Source: Lutibacter sp. B1
Lineage (GTDB): Bacteria; Bacteroidota; Bacteroidia; Flavobacteriales; Flavobacteriaceae
NCBI RefSeq assembly: GCF_012524075.1
Contig: NZ_JAAZUI010000010.1
Span: 1 to 64,000 of the forward strand
Direction of reading: 5' to 3'
Length of the DNA stretch: 64,000 nt
The notes under the pieces were generated by a model that had not been told where the DNA came from, did no database searches, and was given only the letters and a program-made list of their open reading frames with translations. Positions within the stretch are counted from its first letter, which is position 1; each line of letters opens with the position of its first letter. Shown piece by piece: positions 19,508-30,154 of this stretch. The position numbers were made by a program, and so were the translations under genes.

Positions 19508-21430
19508 ATGCTTAACGTACATAACTTAACCGTTTCTTTTGCCGGTTCCGATTTGTTCTCAGGAATTACTTTTAAGTTGAATAAAGGTGATAGAATTGGA
19601 TTAATAGGAAAAAATGGAGCAGGAAAATCTACACTTCTAAAAGTAATTTCTAAAGATATAGAAAGTACTGGTGGAACTATGGCATTTGATAAAGATGTAC
19701 GGATAGGTTTTTTGCGTCAGGATATTGATTTTGTTGAAGGAAGAACCATTTTAGAAGAAGCCTATCAGGCATTTGAAGAAATAAAGCAGATTGAAGTTAA
19801 GTTAGAAAAAATAAACCAAGAATTAGTAGAAAGAACAGATTATGAAAGTGAATACTATCATGATTTGATGGTTGATCTAAACGAACTTACGCATAGATAC
19901 GAATTACTTGGTGGTTATAATTATCAAGGGAATACTGAAAAAATATTACAAGGTCTAGGTTTTCAAAGAGAAGATTTTGATAAACTCACCGATACTTTTT
20001 CGGGTGGTTGGAGAATGCGTATTGAGTTAGCTAAGTTACTGTTACAAGATAATGATATTTTATTGTTAGATGAGCCAACCAATCATTTGGATATTGAATC
20101 TATTATTTGGTTGGAGAATTTCTTGAAAAGTTACGGAGGAGCTATTGTACTTGTTTCTCACGATAAAATGTTTTTAGATAATGTTACTAATAGAACGATA
20201 GAAATTTCATTAGGTAAAATTTATGATTACAAAAAACCGTATTCTCAGTTCTTGTTATTACGAGGAGAAATAAAAGAAAAACAATTACAAGCACAAAAGA
20301 ATCAGGAGAAAGAAATTAAGGCTACACAAGTATTAATTGATAAATTTAGAGCGAAGGCTAATAAAGCATCTATGGCTCAGTCTTTAATAAAAAAATTAGA
20401 TAAAGTTGAGCGTATAGAAGTTGATAATGAAGACAATGCGGTAATGAATATCCGATTCCAGATTTCTAAAGAGCCGGGAAAAATAGTTATTGAGGCAGAA
20501 AATTTATCGAAGAGTTATGGAGACAAGCACGTGTTGGAGAATGTAGATTTATTGATTGAAAGAAATAGCAAAATTGCCTTTGTTGGACAAAATGGGCAAG
20601 GAAAATCAACCTTAGCCAAAATTTTAGTGGGAGAAATTCCTCATGGAGGTCATTTAAAACTTGGACATAATGTAGAAATAGGATATTTTGCACAAAATCA
20701 ATCAGAATATTTAGAACCTGAGCAAACTGTTTTGGAAATTATGGAAAATGCTGCAACTGACACTAACAGAGCCAGGGTAAGAGACATGCTGGGAGCATTT
20801 CTATTTAGTGGTGACGCAGTAGATAAAAAAGCTAAAATGTTATCCGGAGGTGAGAGGAACAGATTGGCTTTGTGTAAATTATTACTATCGCCGTTTAATG
20901 TTTTAATAATGGATGAGCCTACAAACCATTTAGACATAGCTTCAAAAAATGTATTAAAACAGGCTTTAAAAAACTTTAATGGAACACTTATTTTAGTGTC
21001 GCATGATAGAGATTTTTTACAAGGATTAGCAACTACGGTTTACGGATTTAAAGACAAAGTGATTAAAGAATATTTAGGTGATATTGACTTTTTCTTAGAA
21101 CAGCATCAGCTTGAAAATTTACGAGAAGCTGAAAAGAGAACTGTTGTTGCTAAAAAACCAGAAGTTGTTAAAAAAGAAGTTTATCAACATTCAAAAGAAG
21201 AAGAAAAAGAACTTAAAAAATTAAAAAATCAACTGTCTAAAATAGAAACTCAGATAGATAATTTAGAAAGGGAAATTTTAGAAACAGATGCTGCATTAGA
21301 AGAAGATTATGAGGCAATTTCAAGCCAACCTGATTTTTTTGAAAATTACCACGCAAAAAAGAAAAAAATAGAAGCGTTGATGGAAGAGTGGGAAAAGATT
21401 GAGTTAAAAGTTTCGGATTTAGATAAGTAA
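19508..21430 (+). CDS. ABC-F family ATPase (ribosome-associated)
   Basis: A 640-residue protein with two ABC ATPase domains and no membrane segments, the hallmark of ABC-F proteins that act at the ribosomal E site. Walker A motifs are GKNGAGKST (first domain) and GQNGQGKST (second). The signature motifs are FSGGWRMRIELAKLLL and LSGGERNRLALCKLLL, each followed by LLDEPTNHLD or IMDEPTNHLD. A charged linker (about 240-300) joins the domains and a C-terminal coiled coil (about 560-640) follows, as in Uup-like members. The exact subfamily, and any role in antibiotic resistance, cannot be assigned from sequence alone. Confidence 0.93.
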   Translation: MLNVHNLTVSFAGSDLFSGITFKLNKGDRIGLIGKNGAGKSTLLKVISKDIESTGGTMAFDKDVRIGFLRQDIDFVEGRTILEEAYQAFEEIKQIEVKLEKINQELVERTDYESEYYHDLMVDLNELTHRYELLGGYNYQGNTEKILQGLGFQREDFDKLTDTFSGGWRMRIELAKLLLQDNDILLLDEPTNHLDIESIIWLENFLKSYGGAIVLVSHDKMFLDNVTNRTIEISLGKIYDYKKPYSQFLLLRGEIKEKQLQAQKNQEKEIKATQVLIDKFRAKANKASMAQSLIKKLDKVERIEVDNEDNAVMNIRFQISKEPGKIVIEAENLSKSYGDKHVLENVDLLIERNSKIAFVGQNGQGKSTLAKILVGEIPHGGHLKLGHNVEIGYFAQNQSEYLEPEQTVLEIMENAATDTNRARVRDMLGAFLFSGDAVDKKAKMLSGGERNRLALCKLLLSPFNVLIMDEPTNHLDIASKNVLKQALKNFNGTLILVSHDRDFLQGLATTVYGFKDKVIKEYLGDIDFFLEQHQLENLREAEKRTVVAKKPEVVKKEVYQHSKEEEKELKKLKNQLSKIETQIDNLEREILETDAALEEDYEAISSQPDFFENYHAKKKKIEALMEEWEKIELKVSDLDK

Positions 21431-21498
21431 ATTAACGTGAGTGCGGCTTAAAAATATTTGATAATTATCAATTAAATAGTTGCATTTAAGTACAGTTC

Positions 21499-21558
21499 AT
21501 TCCTGAGGATGCAGGAATCTTTTAAAATGCAAAAGGATAGATTTCTGTCTTCACAGGG
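21499..21558. repeat. REP-like palindromic pair between the ABC-F and AraC genes
   Basis: ATTCCTG (21499-21505) and CAGGAAT (21512-21518) form a seven-base stem. About 20 bases further, ATTTCTG (from 21541) faces CAGGGAT with one mismatch. The ATTCCTG...CAGGAAT core resembles palindromes I recall as common between genes in Flavobacteriia. The rest of the 21431-21659 gap is AT-rich with nothing else recognisable. Confidence 0.55.
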
Positions 21559-21659
21559 ATAAAAAATATAATAAGCTTATTAATAGTGTATTAACTGTTT
21601 TTAATTAATCTACTTTACGTTAAATTAATAATTTGTTGTTATAAGTTAATTGTTTAAGG

Positions 21660-22514
21660 ATGGGGAAAACAATAAATAAAAATATTAAAATTTATAATGA
21701 GAAAAAAATTCTTGAAGCCATAGTAGTAGGTAGGCCTTACCATCCTAAAAACTCTGCTATAATTATTATTAAAAAAGGGTATATTTTTTTAAAAAATAAT
21801 CTTCAAAAACTTAAATTAGTACACAATTCAATTTTTTATCTATACCCAAAAGGTGTTTACGAATTTGTTGAATTTAGTAGTGATATTGAACTTAAAGTCC
21901 TTGTTATTGATACTGGCTTAGTTTCTAATTTAGCGCTGAATTTTAATAGATTTAATACGTATCAAATATTAATGTTGGCTTCTGAAAATTATTTTTCAAT
22001 TAATGATTCTGAATTGAGTCAAATGTGGAATTTAATAAGTGTTTTAGAAGAAAACTTGTCTAAAAAAAGAACTGCTTTTAGTAGTCATATCAACCGTCAT
22101 TTATTTTTTTCAATTATTTATTTGAGTATTGATATTGTAAATAAGTATATTGATATTAATGCTAAAGAAATTACAAGAAAAGAAGAAATAGCTTTAGGTT
22201 TTTTAAAGAATTTAGCCATTTATTTTAAGGAAAAAAGAGAAGTTAAATTTTATGCAGAATTACTTTCTATTACATCAAGACATTTATCAGCAACGTTAAA
22301 AGAAGTTACCGGTTTTACCGCAAATGAATTGATTCACCAATCCGTAATTACTGAAGGAAAGATATTGCTTCGATCATCAAAAAAACAAATTAGTGAAATA
22401 GCACAAGAGCTTCATTTTAACGATCAATATTATTTTAGCAATTTTTTTAAAAAATATACAGGTCAAAGTCCTTCAGAATTTAGAATGAATGCAAAACCTA
22501 TAGAAAATAAGTAA
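21660..22514 (+). CDS. AraC-family transcriptional regulator of the adjacent exporter
   Basis: A 284-residue regulator. The C-terminal third (about 190-280) holds the paired AraC helix-turn-helix: SITSRHLSATLKEVTGFTAN as the first motif and the conserved QISEIAQELHFNDQYYFSNF-FKKYTGQSPSEFR as the second. The N-terminal part looks like the cupin-type sensing domain of this family, but no ligand can be named. It is encoded 93 bases upstream of the TolC-HlyD-MFS genes on the same strand, so it most likely controls them. Confidence 0.9.
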   Translation: MGKTINKNIKIYNEKKILEAIVVGRPYHPKNSAIIIIKKGYIFLKNNLQKLKLVHNSIFYLYPKGVYEFVEFSSDIELKVLVIDTGLVSNLALNFNRFNTYQILMLASENYFSINDSELSQMWNLISVLEENLSKKRTAFSSHINRHLFFSIIYLSIDIVNKYIDINAKEITRKEEIALGFLKNLAIYFKEKREVKFYAELLSITSRHLSATLKEVTGFTANELIHQSVITEGKILLRSSKKQISEIAQELHFNDQYYFSNFFKKYTGQSPSEFRMNAKPIENK

Positions 22515-22573
22515 TCTTACTTTCACACATCTTTTTAAGCAAATTAACTATTTTAAGCACCTATAAGGCTACA

Positions 22574-22581
22574 TACATTTG
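22574..22581 (+). promoter_or_regulatory. -7 promoter box of the exporter operon
   Basis: TACATTTG lies 26 bases before the TolC-family ATG. No TTG is present at the usual -33 distance, which fits a promoter that needs an activator such as the AraC protein upstream. Confidence 0.55.
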
Positions 22582-22607
22582 CACCTTGTTTAAATTAAAG
22601 GTAAAAA

Positions 22608-23936
22608 ATGAGGTATAGTATTCATAAAACATCTTATATAGCAGTCTTATTATTTCTGGTATTTACAAGTGTTACTTTTTCACAGGAAAATGTAACAAGT
22701 AAATTAACATTAGAAGAAGTTATTCAATTAGCATTAAAAAATAACCAAGCATTAAAAGTTTCAGATAAATATATAAGTATTGCACAACAACAAACTGAAA
22801 TAAACAAACTACAGCAATTACCAAATATTTCATCTTCTGTAAATGCTTCATACATAGGTGATGTATTAATTTTAGATAAAGATTTTTCAAATTCAACTAC
22901 TGTTGATATGCCACATTTTGGTAATACATTTTCTGTTCAGGCAAGTCAAGTTATTTTTAAAGGAAATGCTGTAAATAATGCTATTAAAATAGGTTTTTTA
23001 CAAGAAGAGTTGGCTAAACTTGATTATAGAGATGACGAATTAAGTATCCGTCTTTTGGTAACAGCAACATATTTAGATTTATTCAAATTATATAATCAAA
23101 AAACGGTTTATAATCAAAATATTGTATTAGCACAAGAACGGTTAAAAAACATAAATAATTTTTATAATCAAGGAATGGTTACCAGAAATGAAGTAATTAG
23201 AGGCGAACTTCAATTAACCAATTTAAAACAAGCAGTAGAAACAATTAGTAATAATATTTCTATTTTAAATAAGCAACTAGCTACTGCTATTGGATTGTCT
23301 GATGCTACAATTATTTTACCGGATGAATCATTATTAGAAGAAAAGCCAATTGTACAGGATTTTGATTTTTATAGTGGAGAGGGTTTCGCAAACAATCCTA
23401 AAATTAAAACAACTCAAGTACAAACAGAATTGGTTAAAAAAACTGCTAAAATTACTAAATCTGAAATGTTACCGGCTTTTGTTGCTTTTGGAGGTTATAA
23501 TATGCAACGTCCCATTACAAGTACTTCACCAGCTTTAGATATGTATAGCAATAGTTGGCAAGTAGGTGTTGGATTGTCTTTTGATATAGAATCATTATAT
23601 AAAACACCTAAAAAATTAAAATTAAACAATTTGCAGTTAGATCAAATGAAAGAAATAGAACTATTGCAAAAACAAAACTTAGATGTAGAAATAAAAGCAG
23701 CTTATTTAAAATATCAAGATGCTGTATCACAGAGCAATACTTTTGTAGAGAGTAAACGTTTGGCAGAAGAGAATTACTATATCATAGAAAAAAAGTACTT
23801 GAATCAATTGGCTTTAGCAGTAGATATGTTAGATGCCAGTAATGCAAAATTAGATGCAGAACTTAATTATACCAATTCAGAAATAAATATTTTATATACA
23901 TATTACAACTTATTAAGAACAATAGGTAAGCTGTAG
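22608..23936 (+). CDS. TolC-family outer-membrane efflux protein
   Basis: Outer-membrane channel of a tripartite exporter. A signal peptide (MRYSIHKTSYIAVLLFLVFTSVTFSQ) is followed by the two repeated helical-hairpin halves of the OEP family. The first begins LTLEEVIQLALKNNQALKV, and the repeat begins around residue 250. Length is 442 residues, normal for the family. The inner-membrane parts follow immediately (26-base gap to the HlyD gene). The exported compounds are unknown. Confidence 0.92.
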   Translation: MRYSIHKTSYIAVLLFLVFTSVTFSQENVTSKLTLEEVIQLALKNNQALKVSDKYISIAQQQTEINKLQQLPNISSSVNASYIGDVLILDKDFSNSTTVDMPHFGNTFSVQASQVIFKGNAVNNAIKIGFLQEELAKLDYRDDELSIRLLVTATYLDLFKLYNQKTVYNQNIVLAQERLKNINNFYNQGMVTRNEVIRGELQLTNLKQAVETISNNISILNKQLATAIGLSDATIILPDESLLEEKPIVQDFDFYSGEGFANNPKIKTTQVQTELVKKTAKITKSEMLPAFVAFGGYNMQRPITSTSPALDMYSNSWQVGVGLSFDIESLYKTPKKLKLNNLQLDQMKEIELLQKQNLDVEIKAAYLKYQDAVSQSNTFVESKRLAEENYYIIEKKYLNQLALAVDMLDASNAKLDAELNYTNSEINILYTYYNLLRTIGKL

Positions 23937-27646: not shown

Positions 27647-28453
27647 ATGAAGTTGAAATATATTTTAATTGGCTTAATTGCCATTGCTTTACTAAATAGT
27701 TGCAAATCAAAAAAAAGAGCTGCCGAAAAAAATAATAAAACTAAAAAAGAAGTAATTTTAAAACAAGACGAAAGTAAAGTTGATGAAATAATTTCAAAGC
27801 AATCAACAAAATCGAGTTTCGAAATTTCTACAGTAGCGTATATTAATAAATATAAAGATATTGCTATGGAAGAAATGAAAAAATATAAAATTCCGGCCAG
27901 TATTACGTTGGCACAAGGAATTTTGGAATCAAGGAGTGGGAATAGTGAATTAACGCTAAAATCTAATAATCATTTTGGTATAAAATGCCATACCGGATGG
28001 AGTGGGAAAAAAGTATATCATGATGATGATAGTAGCGGAGAGTGTTTCAGAAAATATAAAGATCCAAGAACTTCTTTTGAAGATCATTCATTATTTTTAG
28101 TTGAAAGAAAACGGTATTCAAAATTATTCAGATTGAAACCAGGAGATTATGAAGCTTGGGCACAAGGTTTAAGTGAAGCAGGTTATGCAACCGACAGACG
28201 TTATCCTGCAAAATTGATTGGATTAATTGAAAAATATGATCTTCATAAATTTGATACTCAAGTTTTAGGAAAACCTTTTGAGAGGGAGATTGTTAAAAAA
28301 GGAACTGATAATTCTACAAAGCATATAGTTGTTAAAGGTGATACATTGTATTCTATTTCAAAAAAATACGGATTAACTGTAGATGAACTTAAACGGTTGA
28401 ACGGACTTACCTCTAATAATATTGATATTGGACAAACACTGATTTTAAAGTAG
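27647..28453 (+). CDS. Glucosaminidase-LysM lipoprotein (peptidoglycan hydrolase)
   Basis: Cell-wall hydrolase of 268 residues. The lipoprotein signal MKLKYILIGLIAIALLNSC gives lipid Cys19; a basic linker follows. The glucosaminidase domain spans about 65-205 with SITLAQGILESRSGNSEL (catalytic glutamate in ILES) and HFGIKCHTGWSGKKVYHDDD. A single LysM domain ends the protein (about 222-267, HIVVKGDTLYSISKKYGLTV). The last 39 bases of the gene are inside the 94-bp repeat that recurs at 29080-29173, so the gene's 3' end was duplicated when the GNAT segment arrived; this copy is intact. Confidence 0.92.
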   Translation: MKLKYILIGLIAIALLNSCKSKKRAAEKNNKTKKEVILKQDESKVDEIISKQSTKSSFEISTVAYINKYKDIAMEEMKKYKIPASITLAQGILESRSGNSELTLKSNNHFGIKCHTGWSGKKVYHDDDSSGECFRKYKDPRTSFEDHSLFLVERKRYSKLFRLKPGDYEAWAQGLSEAGYATDRRYPAKLIGLIEKYDLHKFDTQVLGKPFEREIVKKGTDNSTKHIVVKGDTLYSISKKYGLTVDELKRLNGLTSNNIDIGQTLILK

Positions 28454-28508
28454 ATTGAAATAAAATTTATATCAATAAACACCAAATAACAGCTTTTTAA
28501 GCGTTGTT
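28415..28508 (+). repeat. 94-bp direct repeat, copy 1 (3' end of the glucosaminidase gene)
   Basis: The 94 bases 28415-28508 are repeated without gaps at 29080-29173 with five differences, all transitions (about 95% identity). Copy 1 starts inside the last 13 codons of the glucosaminidase gene and runs through its stop into the intergenic TTTTTAAGCGTTGTT. Together with copy 2 it brackets the GNAT gene. Confidence 0.95.
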
Positions 28509-28519
28509 GGTTGCAAGTT
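28509..28519 (+). repeat. 11-bp inverted repeat, left end of the GNAT segment
   Basis: GGTTGCAAGTT directly abuts copy 1 of the 94-bp repeat and is perfectly complementary to AACTTGCAACC at 29040-29050, five bases after the GNAT stop codon. The pair encloses exactly the GNAT gene and its leader. Confidence 0.9.
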
Positions 28520-28534
28520 AAAAAACTACTAATT

Positions 28535-29035
28535 ATGGAATTTAAATTGCGAAAATGGAATCTAAACGATATTGATAGCTTAGTAAAGTATGCTAATAAT
28601 AAAAAAATTGCAGCAAACTTAACTGACCAATTTCCACATCCATATACTAGAGAAAATGGAAAAGCTTTTATTCAAAAGGCAACTAAAAACAATCCTACAA
28701 GTATTTTTGCAATAGAAATTAATGGAGAGGCTTGTGGAGGAATTGGATTACATCTTCAAACTGATATTCATAAAAAAAATGCAGAACTTGGGTATTGGTT
28801 AGCTGAACCCTATTGGGGAAAAGGAATAATGAGTAAAGCTGTAAGACAAATAATAGATTATGGGTTTAAAAATTTTGCAATAGAAAGAATATTTGCTCGT
28901 CCTTTTGGAACAAATATTGGCTCTCGGAAAGTTTTAGAAAAAGCAGGATTTGTTCTAGAAGGAAAATTTGAGAAAACCCTATATAAAGGAGGAAAATACT
29001 TAGATGAATTAATTTATGCAATTAGAAAAAGTTGA
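28535..29035 (+). CDS. GNAT-family N-acetyltransferase in a repeat-bounded segment
   Basis: A 166-residue acetyltransferase of the RimJ/RimL-like GNAT group. Typical elements are the N-terminal LRKWNLNDIDSLVKYANN, the conserved LGYWLAEPYWGKGIMSKA acetyl-CoA loop region, and GSRKVLEKAGFVLEGKFEKT near the end. Such proteins acetylate N-termini, small molecules or, in some toxin systems, aminoacyl-tRNA; the target here is unknown, and no antitoxin gene is adjacent. The ATG at 28535 is preferred over an in-frame TTG at 28511 because that TTG lies inside the left 11-bp inverted repeat. The gene is bounded by inverted repeats and, outside them, by 94-bp direct repeats, so it looks inserted. Confidence 0.9.
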   Translation: MEFKLRKWNLNDIDSLVKYANNKKIAANLTDQFPHPYTRENGKAFIQKATKNNPTSIFAIEINGEACGGIGLHLQTDIHKKNAELGYWLAEPYWGKGIMSKAVRQIIDYGFKNFAIERIFARPFGTNIGSRKVLEKAGFVLEGKFEKTLYKGGKYLDELIYAIRKS

Positions 29036-29039
29036 TAAA

Positions 29040-29050
29040 AACTTGCAACC
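29040..29050 (+). repeat. 11-bp inverted repeat, right end of the GNAT segment
   Basis: AACTTGCAACC is the perfect complement of 28509-28519. It is followed by 29 bases of unmatched sequence and then copy 2 of the 94-bp direct repeat. Confidence 0.9.
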
Positions 29051-29079
29051 TACAATGTATAACCAAAATTGCTTAATTC

Positions 29080-29173
29080 AATAATATTGACATTGGATAA
29101 ACACTGATTTTAAAGTAGGTTGAAATAAAATTCATATCAATAAACACCAAATAACAACTTTTTAAGCGTTGTT
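29080..29173 (+). repeat. 94-bp direct repeat, copy 2 (dead copy of the LysM gene tail)
   Basis: Second copy of 28415-28508. It still encodes NNIDIG in the matching frame, but a C-to-T change turns the following CAA (Gln) into TAA, so it is a non-functional fragment of the glucosaminidase 3' end. The rest of the gap up to 29280 holds a Fur-box-like dyad at 29171-29193 and a hairpin at 29233-29260. Confidence 0.95.
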
Positions 29174-29232
29174 ATGATAATAATCATGATAACAGCAATA
29201 TGTATTTTTTATTTTTGAATTTAATCGAATGG

Positions 29233-29279: not shown

Positions 29280-30077
29280 ATGAAAAATTATCAATATAAA
29301 AAAGTAAAAAATGCTATAACTTTTTTAGGTAAGTATGTTCTGATTTTTTTATTTTTTGGTTCTTTACTTTTCAGTTGTCAAAAAACTAAAACACCTGATT
29401 CCAAAACTTGGCATCAAAAATATGATTTTATTTATGATATAAATCCTATTACCTTTCATTATGATCATGGTGTATTAGCAGAAAGTTATCCTGAAAATAA
29501 AGAAACTACAGAAGTAAGCTTTAATGATGTTTCTAAGTACTTAGGACATGTTTGTTTATGTGGAGCAGGAGGTTATAAAATTTCTGAAATTGCAGTAAAC
29601 TTATTGTCAAAAGGCAAAGATACTCTTGAAAGAGGAGATTTTATATTAATTAGCAGTAAAGATCATACTGTAGGAGATGTGGTTTCGTATGTTTTAGGTT
29701 GTAGCAGAAGAAATGACTTTGAAAATAACCAGTATTATATCAATTCAAAAATAGAAGCACCAAGAAGGGAATATCATTATTTTATTGGGTATCCTCATCA
29801 AAAAAAAGCAGTTCATATTATTTATCGCAAACATTTACTTGTTGGAAATGAACTTATGGATAGTTTGTGGAAAATTGAGTTGGCTTATGAAGAAAATCCT
29901 ACTTCAGTTAATTCAGATGATTTAGAATTTTATCAAAAAGAGATGTTTACTATGGTAAATGATGTTCTTTTTGAGAAAAAAGAAGGGCTTTTTGAGGCAG
30001 AATTAATTAATTATGATGAATTTCAAGCTGTTTTAAAAGAATTAAAACAAGAAAAAGAAATTATGGTTAAAGGTTAA
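29280..30077 (+). CDS. FmdE-like domain lipoprotein
   Basis: A 265-residue lipoprotein with an unusually long N-region: the signal ends at FGSLLFSC, lipid Cys33. Residues 89-100, GHVCLCGAGGYK, resemble the GHxCxG...GY metal-binding motif of the FmdE family (proteins linked to formylmethanofuran dehydrogenase operons but widespread elsewhere). GDVVSYVLGCSRR near 132-145 matches the second family block that supplies another cysteine. His90, Cys92, Cys94 and the later Cys could bind a metal. The C-terminal 70 residues are helical and charged. No molybdopterin enzyme is encoded nearby. The family call is by eye and moderate. Confidence 0.6.
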   Translation: MKNYQYKKVKNAITFLGKYVLIFLFFGSLLFSCQKTKTPDSKTWHQKYDFIYDINPITFHYDHGVLAESYPENKETTEVSFNDVSKYLGHVCLCGAGGYKISEIAVNLLSKGKDTLERGDFILISSKDHTVGDVVSYVLGCSRRNDFENNQYYINSKIEAPRREYHYFIGYPHQKKAVHIIYRKHLLVGNELMDSLWKIELAYEENPTSVNSDDLEFYQKEMFTMVNDVLFEKKEGLFEAELINYDEFQAVLKELKQEKEIMVKG

Positions 30078-30126: not shown

Positions 30127-30154
30127 AAAAACGCTGCTTTAAGCAGCGTTTTTT
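30127..30154. terminator. Bidirectional terminator between the FmdE-like and Spy-like genes
   Basis: AAAAACGCTGC faces GCAGCGTTTTT around a short TTTAA loop, with A-rich and T-rich flanks on either side. It serves the plus-strand gene ending at 30077 and the minus-strand gene ending at 30188. Confidence 0.9.

Follow-up and report, generated by a model that had tools for sequence, protein, structure and literature searches.

A GNAT gene behind a glucosaminidase gene in Lutibacter sp. B1 is probably a disabled cassette of an integron-like system of Flavobacteriaceae

How did a GNAT acetyltransferase gene come to lie between two 94-bp copies of the end of its neighbouring gene? We addressed this question in Lutibacter sp. 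B1 (Flavobacteriaceae), in the first 64,000 nucleotides of contig NZ_JAAZUI010000010.1 (G000:C11:1-64000; this whole stretch is called the window here). The GNAT gene follows an intact glucosaminidase gene, the host gene, and to judge from sequence it is probably a stray, disabled cassette of an integron-like system. Our reading, to which we give a probability of about 80%, is that the GNAT segment is a single cassette of that system, and that a later recombination or template switch cost it the 3′ part of its attC-like recombination site and left the second copy of the host-gene end. The features of the locus are as follows.

27647-28453, plus strand: host gene, encoding a glucosaminidase with LysM, intact, 268 amino acids (Pfam PF01832, PF01476).
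28415-28508, plus strand: repeat copy A, the final 39 coding bases of the host gene and the 55 bases that follow, with a GTT core at its end.
28506-28519, plus strand: left cassette end, R′ type, GTTGGTTGCAAGTT, which fits the pattern GTT-R-N5-M-A-K of other cassettes.
28535-29035, plus strand: cassette gene, GNAT acetyltransferase, 166 amino acids (PF13302, 4.2e-28).
29040-29053, plus strand: right cassette end, R″ type, AACTTGCAACCTAC, complementary to the left end.
29046-29091, plus strand: attC-like site, first 46 of 133 positions (covariance model R1, 28.6 bits, E = 2.7e-5 with 62 bases searched).
29080-29087, plus strand: junction word AATAATAT, common to the host gene and some attC-like sites.
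29080-29173, plus strand: repeat copy B, standing where the 3′ part of the attC-like site would otherwise lie.
29171-29173, plus strand: GTT core of the right junction, the point at which host sequence would adjoin the R′ of a complete attC.

We observed that the GNAT segment has the complementary GTT...AAC ends of a gene cassette, with 13 of 14 positions matching. The single mismatch lies in the R″ core, where the usual CAAC before AATG reads CTAC. We rejected R′ at 28510 rather than 28506, because the opposite end would then need 4 inserted bases and the agreement with the end pattern is poorer. Behind the gene, the window matches positions 1-46 of the 133-position attC-like site and not a complete one. 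The score fell to 20 bits when the match was extended through copy B, and neither copy A nor copy B alone gave a match to the attC model up to E = 10. The site passes into copy B at AATAATAT, and a comparable site containing this word is that of L048 (...CAATAATATAGAATG). The left edge of copy B falls inside the GNAT cassette's own attC-like site, at this short word match.

The 94-bp repeat was as the earlier note had described it: the two copies align without gaps at 89 of 94 positions with a spacing of 665, and the five differences (copy A positions 28426, 28433, 28454, 28468 and 28492) are all transitions. The runner-up ungapped 94-mer reached just 55 matches (offsets 100-1499, whole 64-kb window), so the repeat is far beyond chance. 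An intact upstream gene and a premature stop in the second copy had also been reported and were seen again, with TAA in copy B at the CAA of copy A, a stop in the host-gene frame. Both copies end in the same GTT. An imperfect palindrome, GTTATGATAATAATCATGATAAC, occupies window positions 29171-29193, right at the right GTT junction. Host-gene tails ('ACCAAATAACAACTTT'), which resemble attC 3′ parts by eye, were considered as attC remnants and set aside, with no model match up to E = 10.

The attC-like sites came to light when the segment was searched as DNA against 60 genomes. This returned GNAT gene matches and short matches to ~29049-29090. The latter occurred several times per genome in some genomes and are the left end of a ~133-bp site. 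Thirty-four attC-like sites could be aligned over their full length, and 10 of the 12 pairs of their common stem have changed on both sides. Their layout is an outer box (CAAC/GTTG), an unpaired spacer, an inner stem and a variable middle, and integron attC sites have the same outer box, spacer, inner stem and variable middle. We built R1 from 34 of 39 candidates, which we had located with a pattern derived from the window and relatives; the five omitted comprised two judged false, one near-duplicate and two divergent sites. R1 E-values come from a short calibration, and matches per genome are lower bounds, with stricter filters for sets of over 40 genomes. R1 matched 35 of 38 Lutibacter genomes (E ≤ 0.01) and 239 of the 299 Flavobacteriaceae genomes of the family sample, or 196 of its 236 genera (E ≤ 0.001). 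A phylum sample of 198 genomes gave 19 with matches at E ≤ 1e-5, 10 of those outside the family; the 179 without a match at this threshold are a partial negative control.

These sites form arrays. The single-contig 3-Mb genome G012 held at least 53 matches, and among the 50 listed, 49 fall within 614,362-706,702 on the plus strand and one lies elsewhere. This array starts ~5 kb behind a recombinase gene at 608,003-609,193, with a weaker site at 610,220. As in integrons, an attC-type hairpin stands behind each cassette (34 aligned sites, arrays). We found at least 77 attC-like matches in the window's own genome (E ≤ 0.01); those listed sit on contigs C121-C149, with one on C81, a scatter that is expected if repeats break the assembly. 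The picture is not uniform: in the single-contig G190:C1, the listed attC-like matches are scattered over both strands, and many of these are perhaps lone cassettes.

Segments excised at GTT must have a 5′ end that pairs with the 3′ end of the same segment. We compared the ends of cassettes lying between neighbouring sites 150-2600 bases apart, 82 from Lutibacter (from 110 of 114 site matches) and 70 from six other genera (from 86 of 109 site matches), with cut-off and over-long rows dropped. End positions 1-9 were complementary in 90-100% of the Lutibacter cassettes. At positions 4-8, these cassettes matched at 4.78 of 5 positions, compared to 1.78 in shuffles (highest of 200: 2.11) and 1.83 of 5 when the two sides of a single site, each part of a different cassette, were compared. 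The set from six genera matched at 4.80 of 5 positions, compared to 1.86 in shuffles (highest of 500: 2.2). R′/R″ complementarity with a GTT/AAC core, a property of integrons, was present in both sets, judged against shuffles and same-site controls. On this sequence evidence, the two ends of the 152 cassettes look as if they pair in excised circles. Position 11 of the cassette ends (L154-L173, L229-L238) is a near-constant mismatch, matching in 4% and 10%; its left base is A in 70 of 70 cassettes of the six-genera set, and pairing resumes at positions 12-14. The mismatch is perhaps a strand or orientation mark.

The arrays adjoin a tyrosine recombinase of ~390 amino acids, 44-87% identical to that of L168, and the window's genome encodes an intact one of about 395 amino acids on G000:C42. 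As with the integrase gene of an integron, the recombinase gene lies beside the array: sites were found 3′ of it, on the same strand and 0.4-7.9 kb away, at 17 of 17 loci with room downstream. Another three recombinase loci, that of the window's own genome among them, end at a contig edge, and the L163 locus has an additional site upstream on the same strand. The catalytic boxes are present. The spacing from the Arg to the His box is 92-93 residues compared to 134 in IntI1 (21 of 28 long recombinases measurable by pattern), and the aligned rows have a visible gap in place of the ~42-residue segment of IntI1. The recombinase lacks the IntI additional domain, and the integron-like system is therefore not filed as a canonical integron. 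We infer that this recombinase carries out catalysis on the attC-like sites.

We also compared the recombinase with known families. Against TIGR02249 it gave two matched stretches and 196 bits, below the cut-off of 265; no protein exceeded this cut-off in the 38 genus genomes, and a canonical IntI in the genus was rejected on that count. The best NCBIfam score was to NF040815 (206 bits, below the cut-off of 220), which NCBI names 'site-specific tyrosine recombinase/integron integrase', a name that hints at kinship between the recombinase and integron integrases. The best solved-structure match was XerA (5hxy, 3.2e-41). The recombinase has an N-terminal extension of about 95 amino acids, and G012 and G013 hold Xer-like genes (~295-300 amino acids) besides it. 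In a tree, IntI1 grouped with the ~390-amino-acid recombinases (98/94); because the IntI1 and Xer rows are very long branches, this place is unsure, and the tree was set aside as a placement. Five Lutibacter genomes and a Chryseobacterium plasmid carry a shorter branch of ~347 amino acids (365 in one row). The plasmid locus (L239; NZ_CP041688.1, Chryseobacterium sp. SNU WT5, 19968-23217) encodes a shorter-branch recombinase of 347 amino acids, with two weak site matches behind it (32.9 and 26.6 bits; E = 0.0094 and 0.09). The cassette between these two sites has ends that match at 12 of 14 positions, and the plasmid is possibly a mobile form of the system.

We lean towards the view that many Flavobacteriaceae genera carry a chromosomal integron-like platform, with a distinct ~390-amino-acid recombinase without the IntI domain, ~133-bp hairpin sites and ~14-bp end pairing that includes a fixed mismatch. 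Such a platform would be a second way to recombine folded single-stranded DNA, missed as detection tools require the additional domain, and it would seed lone cassettes, such as GNAT, around the chromosome, where site decay fixes them. The platform looks like an integron variant, one that works as an integron does.

At the window locus, the host recombinase would have inserted the GNAT cassette at the GTT core just 3′ of the glucosaminidase gene, outside the main array. Later, recombination or a template switch would have fused the attC-like site to the host gene at AATAATAT, a word present in both, removing the attC-like 3′ part and leaving a second 94-bp copy that ends at the same GTT. One route would be a single unequal crossover at AATAATAT between a cassette-bearing and a cassette-free chromosome; a double template switch would give the same structure, and the two are indistinguishable here. 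The 94-bp duplication would thus be later than the cassette insertion and not its cause. The repeat beside GNAT has the look of a scar, left when half of the GNAT recombination site was later lost. With its R″ core altered and half of its site gone, the cassette is probably immobile, a dead relic.

The host gene has a homologue in 59 of 60 relatives searched, and we read its locus in 29 relatives with 1.5-kb flanks. GNAT was found 3′ of the glucosaminidase gene in 0 of the 29, and so was the FmdE-like gene that follows GNAT in the window; among the loci read, the interval from 28454 to about 30125 is therefore specific to the window lineage. Relatives have sites without the insert; in 23 of the 29 loci, the flank extended as far as the next conserved gene (LTXXQ or radical-SAM). 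The 55-base tail of the repeat was not seen behind the host gene in any of the 29. Two more features complete the interval.

29280-30077, plus strand: FmdE-like gene in the lineage-specific interval, cassette status not shown.
30130-30154, plus strand: terminator-like hairpin, right limit of the inserted interval (by eye).

In relatives such as L016, this terminator-like hairpin stands directly 3′ of the host gene (by eye). The FmdE-like lipoprotein gene (29280-30077) was matched in 1 of 38 genus genomes, its own. It was considered as a second cassette and rejected: its left end is without the position-11 A, and a search of the whole window gave no attC-like site at E ≤ 0.1.

The GNAT DNA is 91% identical to a copy at a different locus in G031, and the glucosaminidase proteins of the two genomes are just 66% identical. 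In G031 conservation of the GNAT stretch also starts at TTGCAAGTT, which is where a degenerate attC-like site comes to its end (24.5 bits, E = 0.0067 with filters off). Several observations weigh against a cassette origin of the window segment. This weak G031 site was missed when the 20 kb around it were searched with default filters. No site was visible beside related GNAT genes in G033, G035, G107, G001 and G017, and the GNAT gene therefore occurs outside cassettes too; the segment was matched in just 4 of 299 family genomes (E ≤ 1e-20), which also argues against a purely cassette-borne GNAT. The window locus keeps no intact attC-like site (none at E ≤ 0.1 in a whole-window search), so the cassette status of GNAT rests on the half site and the end complementarity. 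In addition, we infer the order of events.

The earlier note had proposed a mobile cassette moved in trans, with the repeats as attachment sites that restored the host gene. Its first part agrees with our data, as the GNAT segment is of cassette type and a recombinase is encoded elsewhere (G000:C42); the part given to the repeats was not supported. If a circle carrying a copy of the host-gene tail had integrated at the 3′ end of the gene, direct repeats beside an intact upstream gene would result, and relatives would have insert-free sites, both as observed. However, copy B starts within the attC-like site, and of the repeat edges, taken by the note as the ends of an integrative element, only the terminal GTT lies at the expected cassette crossover. 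Moreover, the 55-base tail unseen in 29 relatives leaves no conserved target, and a separate complementary end pair already explains both cassette edges. We consider an integrated circle improbable. The same degree of doubt applies to a tandem duplication of the host-gene end that was later invaded by the GNAT segment: the five transitions in 94 bases show that the copies are not brand new, as such an early duplication would predict, but two coincidences are needed, a start exactly at the attC-like break and an end exactly at the GTT core.

The attC-like sites could also be dispersed palindromic repeats or RNA elements, with GNAT an ordinary transferred gene beside one of them. Hairpins with compensatory changes fit RNA elements too, and the G190 matches on both strands have the scatter of dispersed repeats. 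The ends of a segment, however, pair with each other and not with the adjoining segment, which is the mark of excised circles, and the arrays are one-directional and adjoin a tyrosine recombinase. None of six loci reached an Rfam gathering score, the single match obtained falling short of it (27.8 compared to 65.3 bits), and the site was accordingly rejected as an Rfam family. We regard this explanation as highly improbable and retain the reading of GNAT as a cassette that lost half its site.

The platform behind the window locus is a more interesting part of these results than the probably decayed single cassette, which would be an example of lone cassette fixation beside an ordinary gene. 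If the platform is real, a large, mostly aquatic bacterial family has a cassette reservoir seemingly overlooked by integron surveys, and the IntI additional domain is not the sole way of handling attC-type hairpins. It would also allow a direct experimental test of what is essential to the integron mechanism, and would be a new source of uncharacterised genes. Published sources describe the additional domain as defining and necessary for an integron integrase (PMC9668308), and as essential yet incompletely conserved in an integron-like subgroup (PMC8138268). Others place Bacteroidota among the integron-bearing phyla (PMC8618304), mention In0 elements and, after these, one complete integron in Bacteroidetes proper, that of Salinibacter ruber (PMC9024848), and report attC models for 11 taxa, none of them Bacteroidota (PMC8352920). 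The accessible literature on integrons or attC in Bacteroidota, with preprints and most subscription papers outside the search, yielded no description of the arrays or the recombinase. The platform is likely to be novel, although this is not proven.

Compared to known systems, the platform is closest in form to the sedentary chromosomal integrons (IntI, attI and attC arrays, such as the Vibrio superintegrons). It shares with them long one-directional arrays of short genes, hairpin sites of the R″/L″/L′/R′ type with a GTT/AAC core and mutually complementary cassette ends, and a tyrosine recombinase beside the array. It differs in that the Lutibacter-type recombinase is without the IntI additional domain, scores below the TIGR02249 cut-off, has the ~95-amino-acid N-terminal extension and points towards the array on the same strand, and in that the pairing of cassette ends spans about 14 bp and is regularly interrupted by a mismatch at position 11. 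With the XerA/XerC/XerD-type recombinases it has in common a catalytic domain without an insertion, XerA being the best solved match, whereas the N-terminal extension, the hairpin arrays alongside and the coexisting Xer-like genes of G012 and G013 set it apart. Integrons also have secondary sites, attG, that take lone cassettes. The window locus resembles these in having a single cassette at a GTT outside an array, and differs from them in its broken attC-like site, the 3′ part of which is replaced by a copy of the host-gene end.
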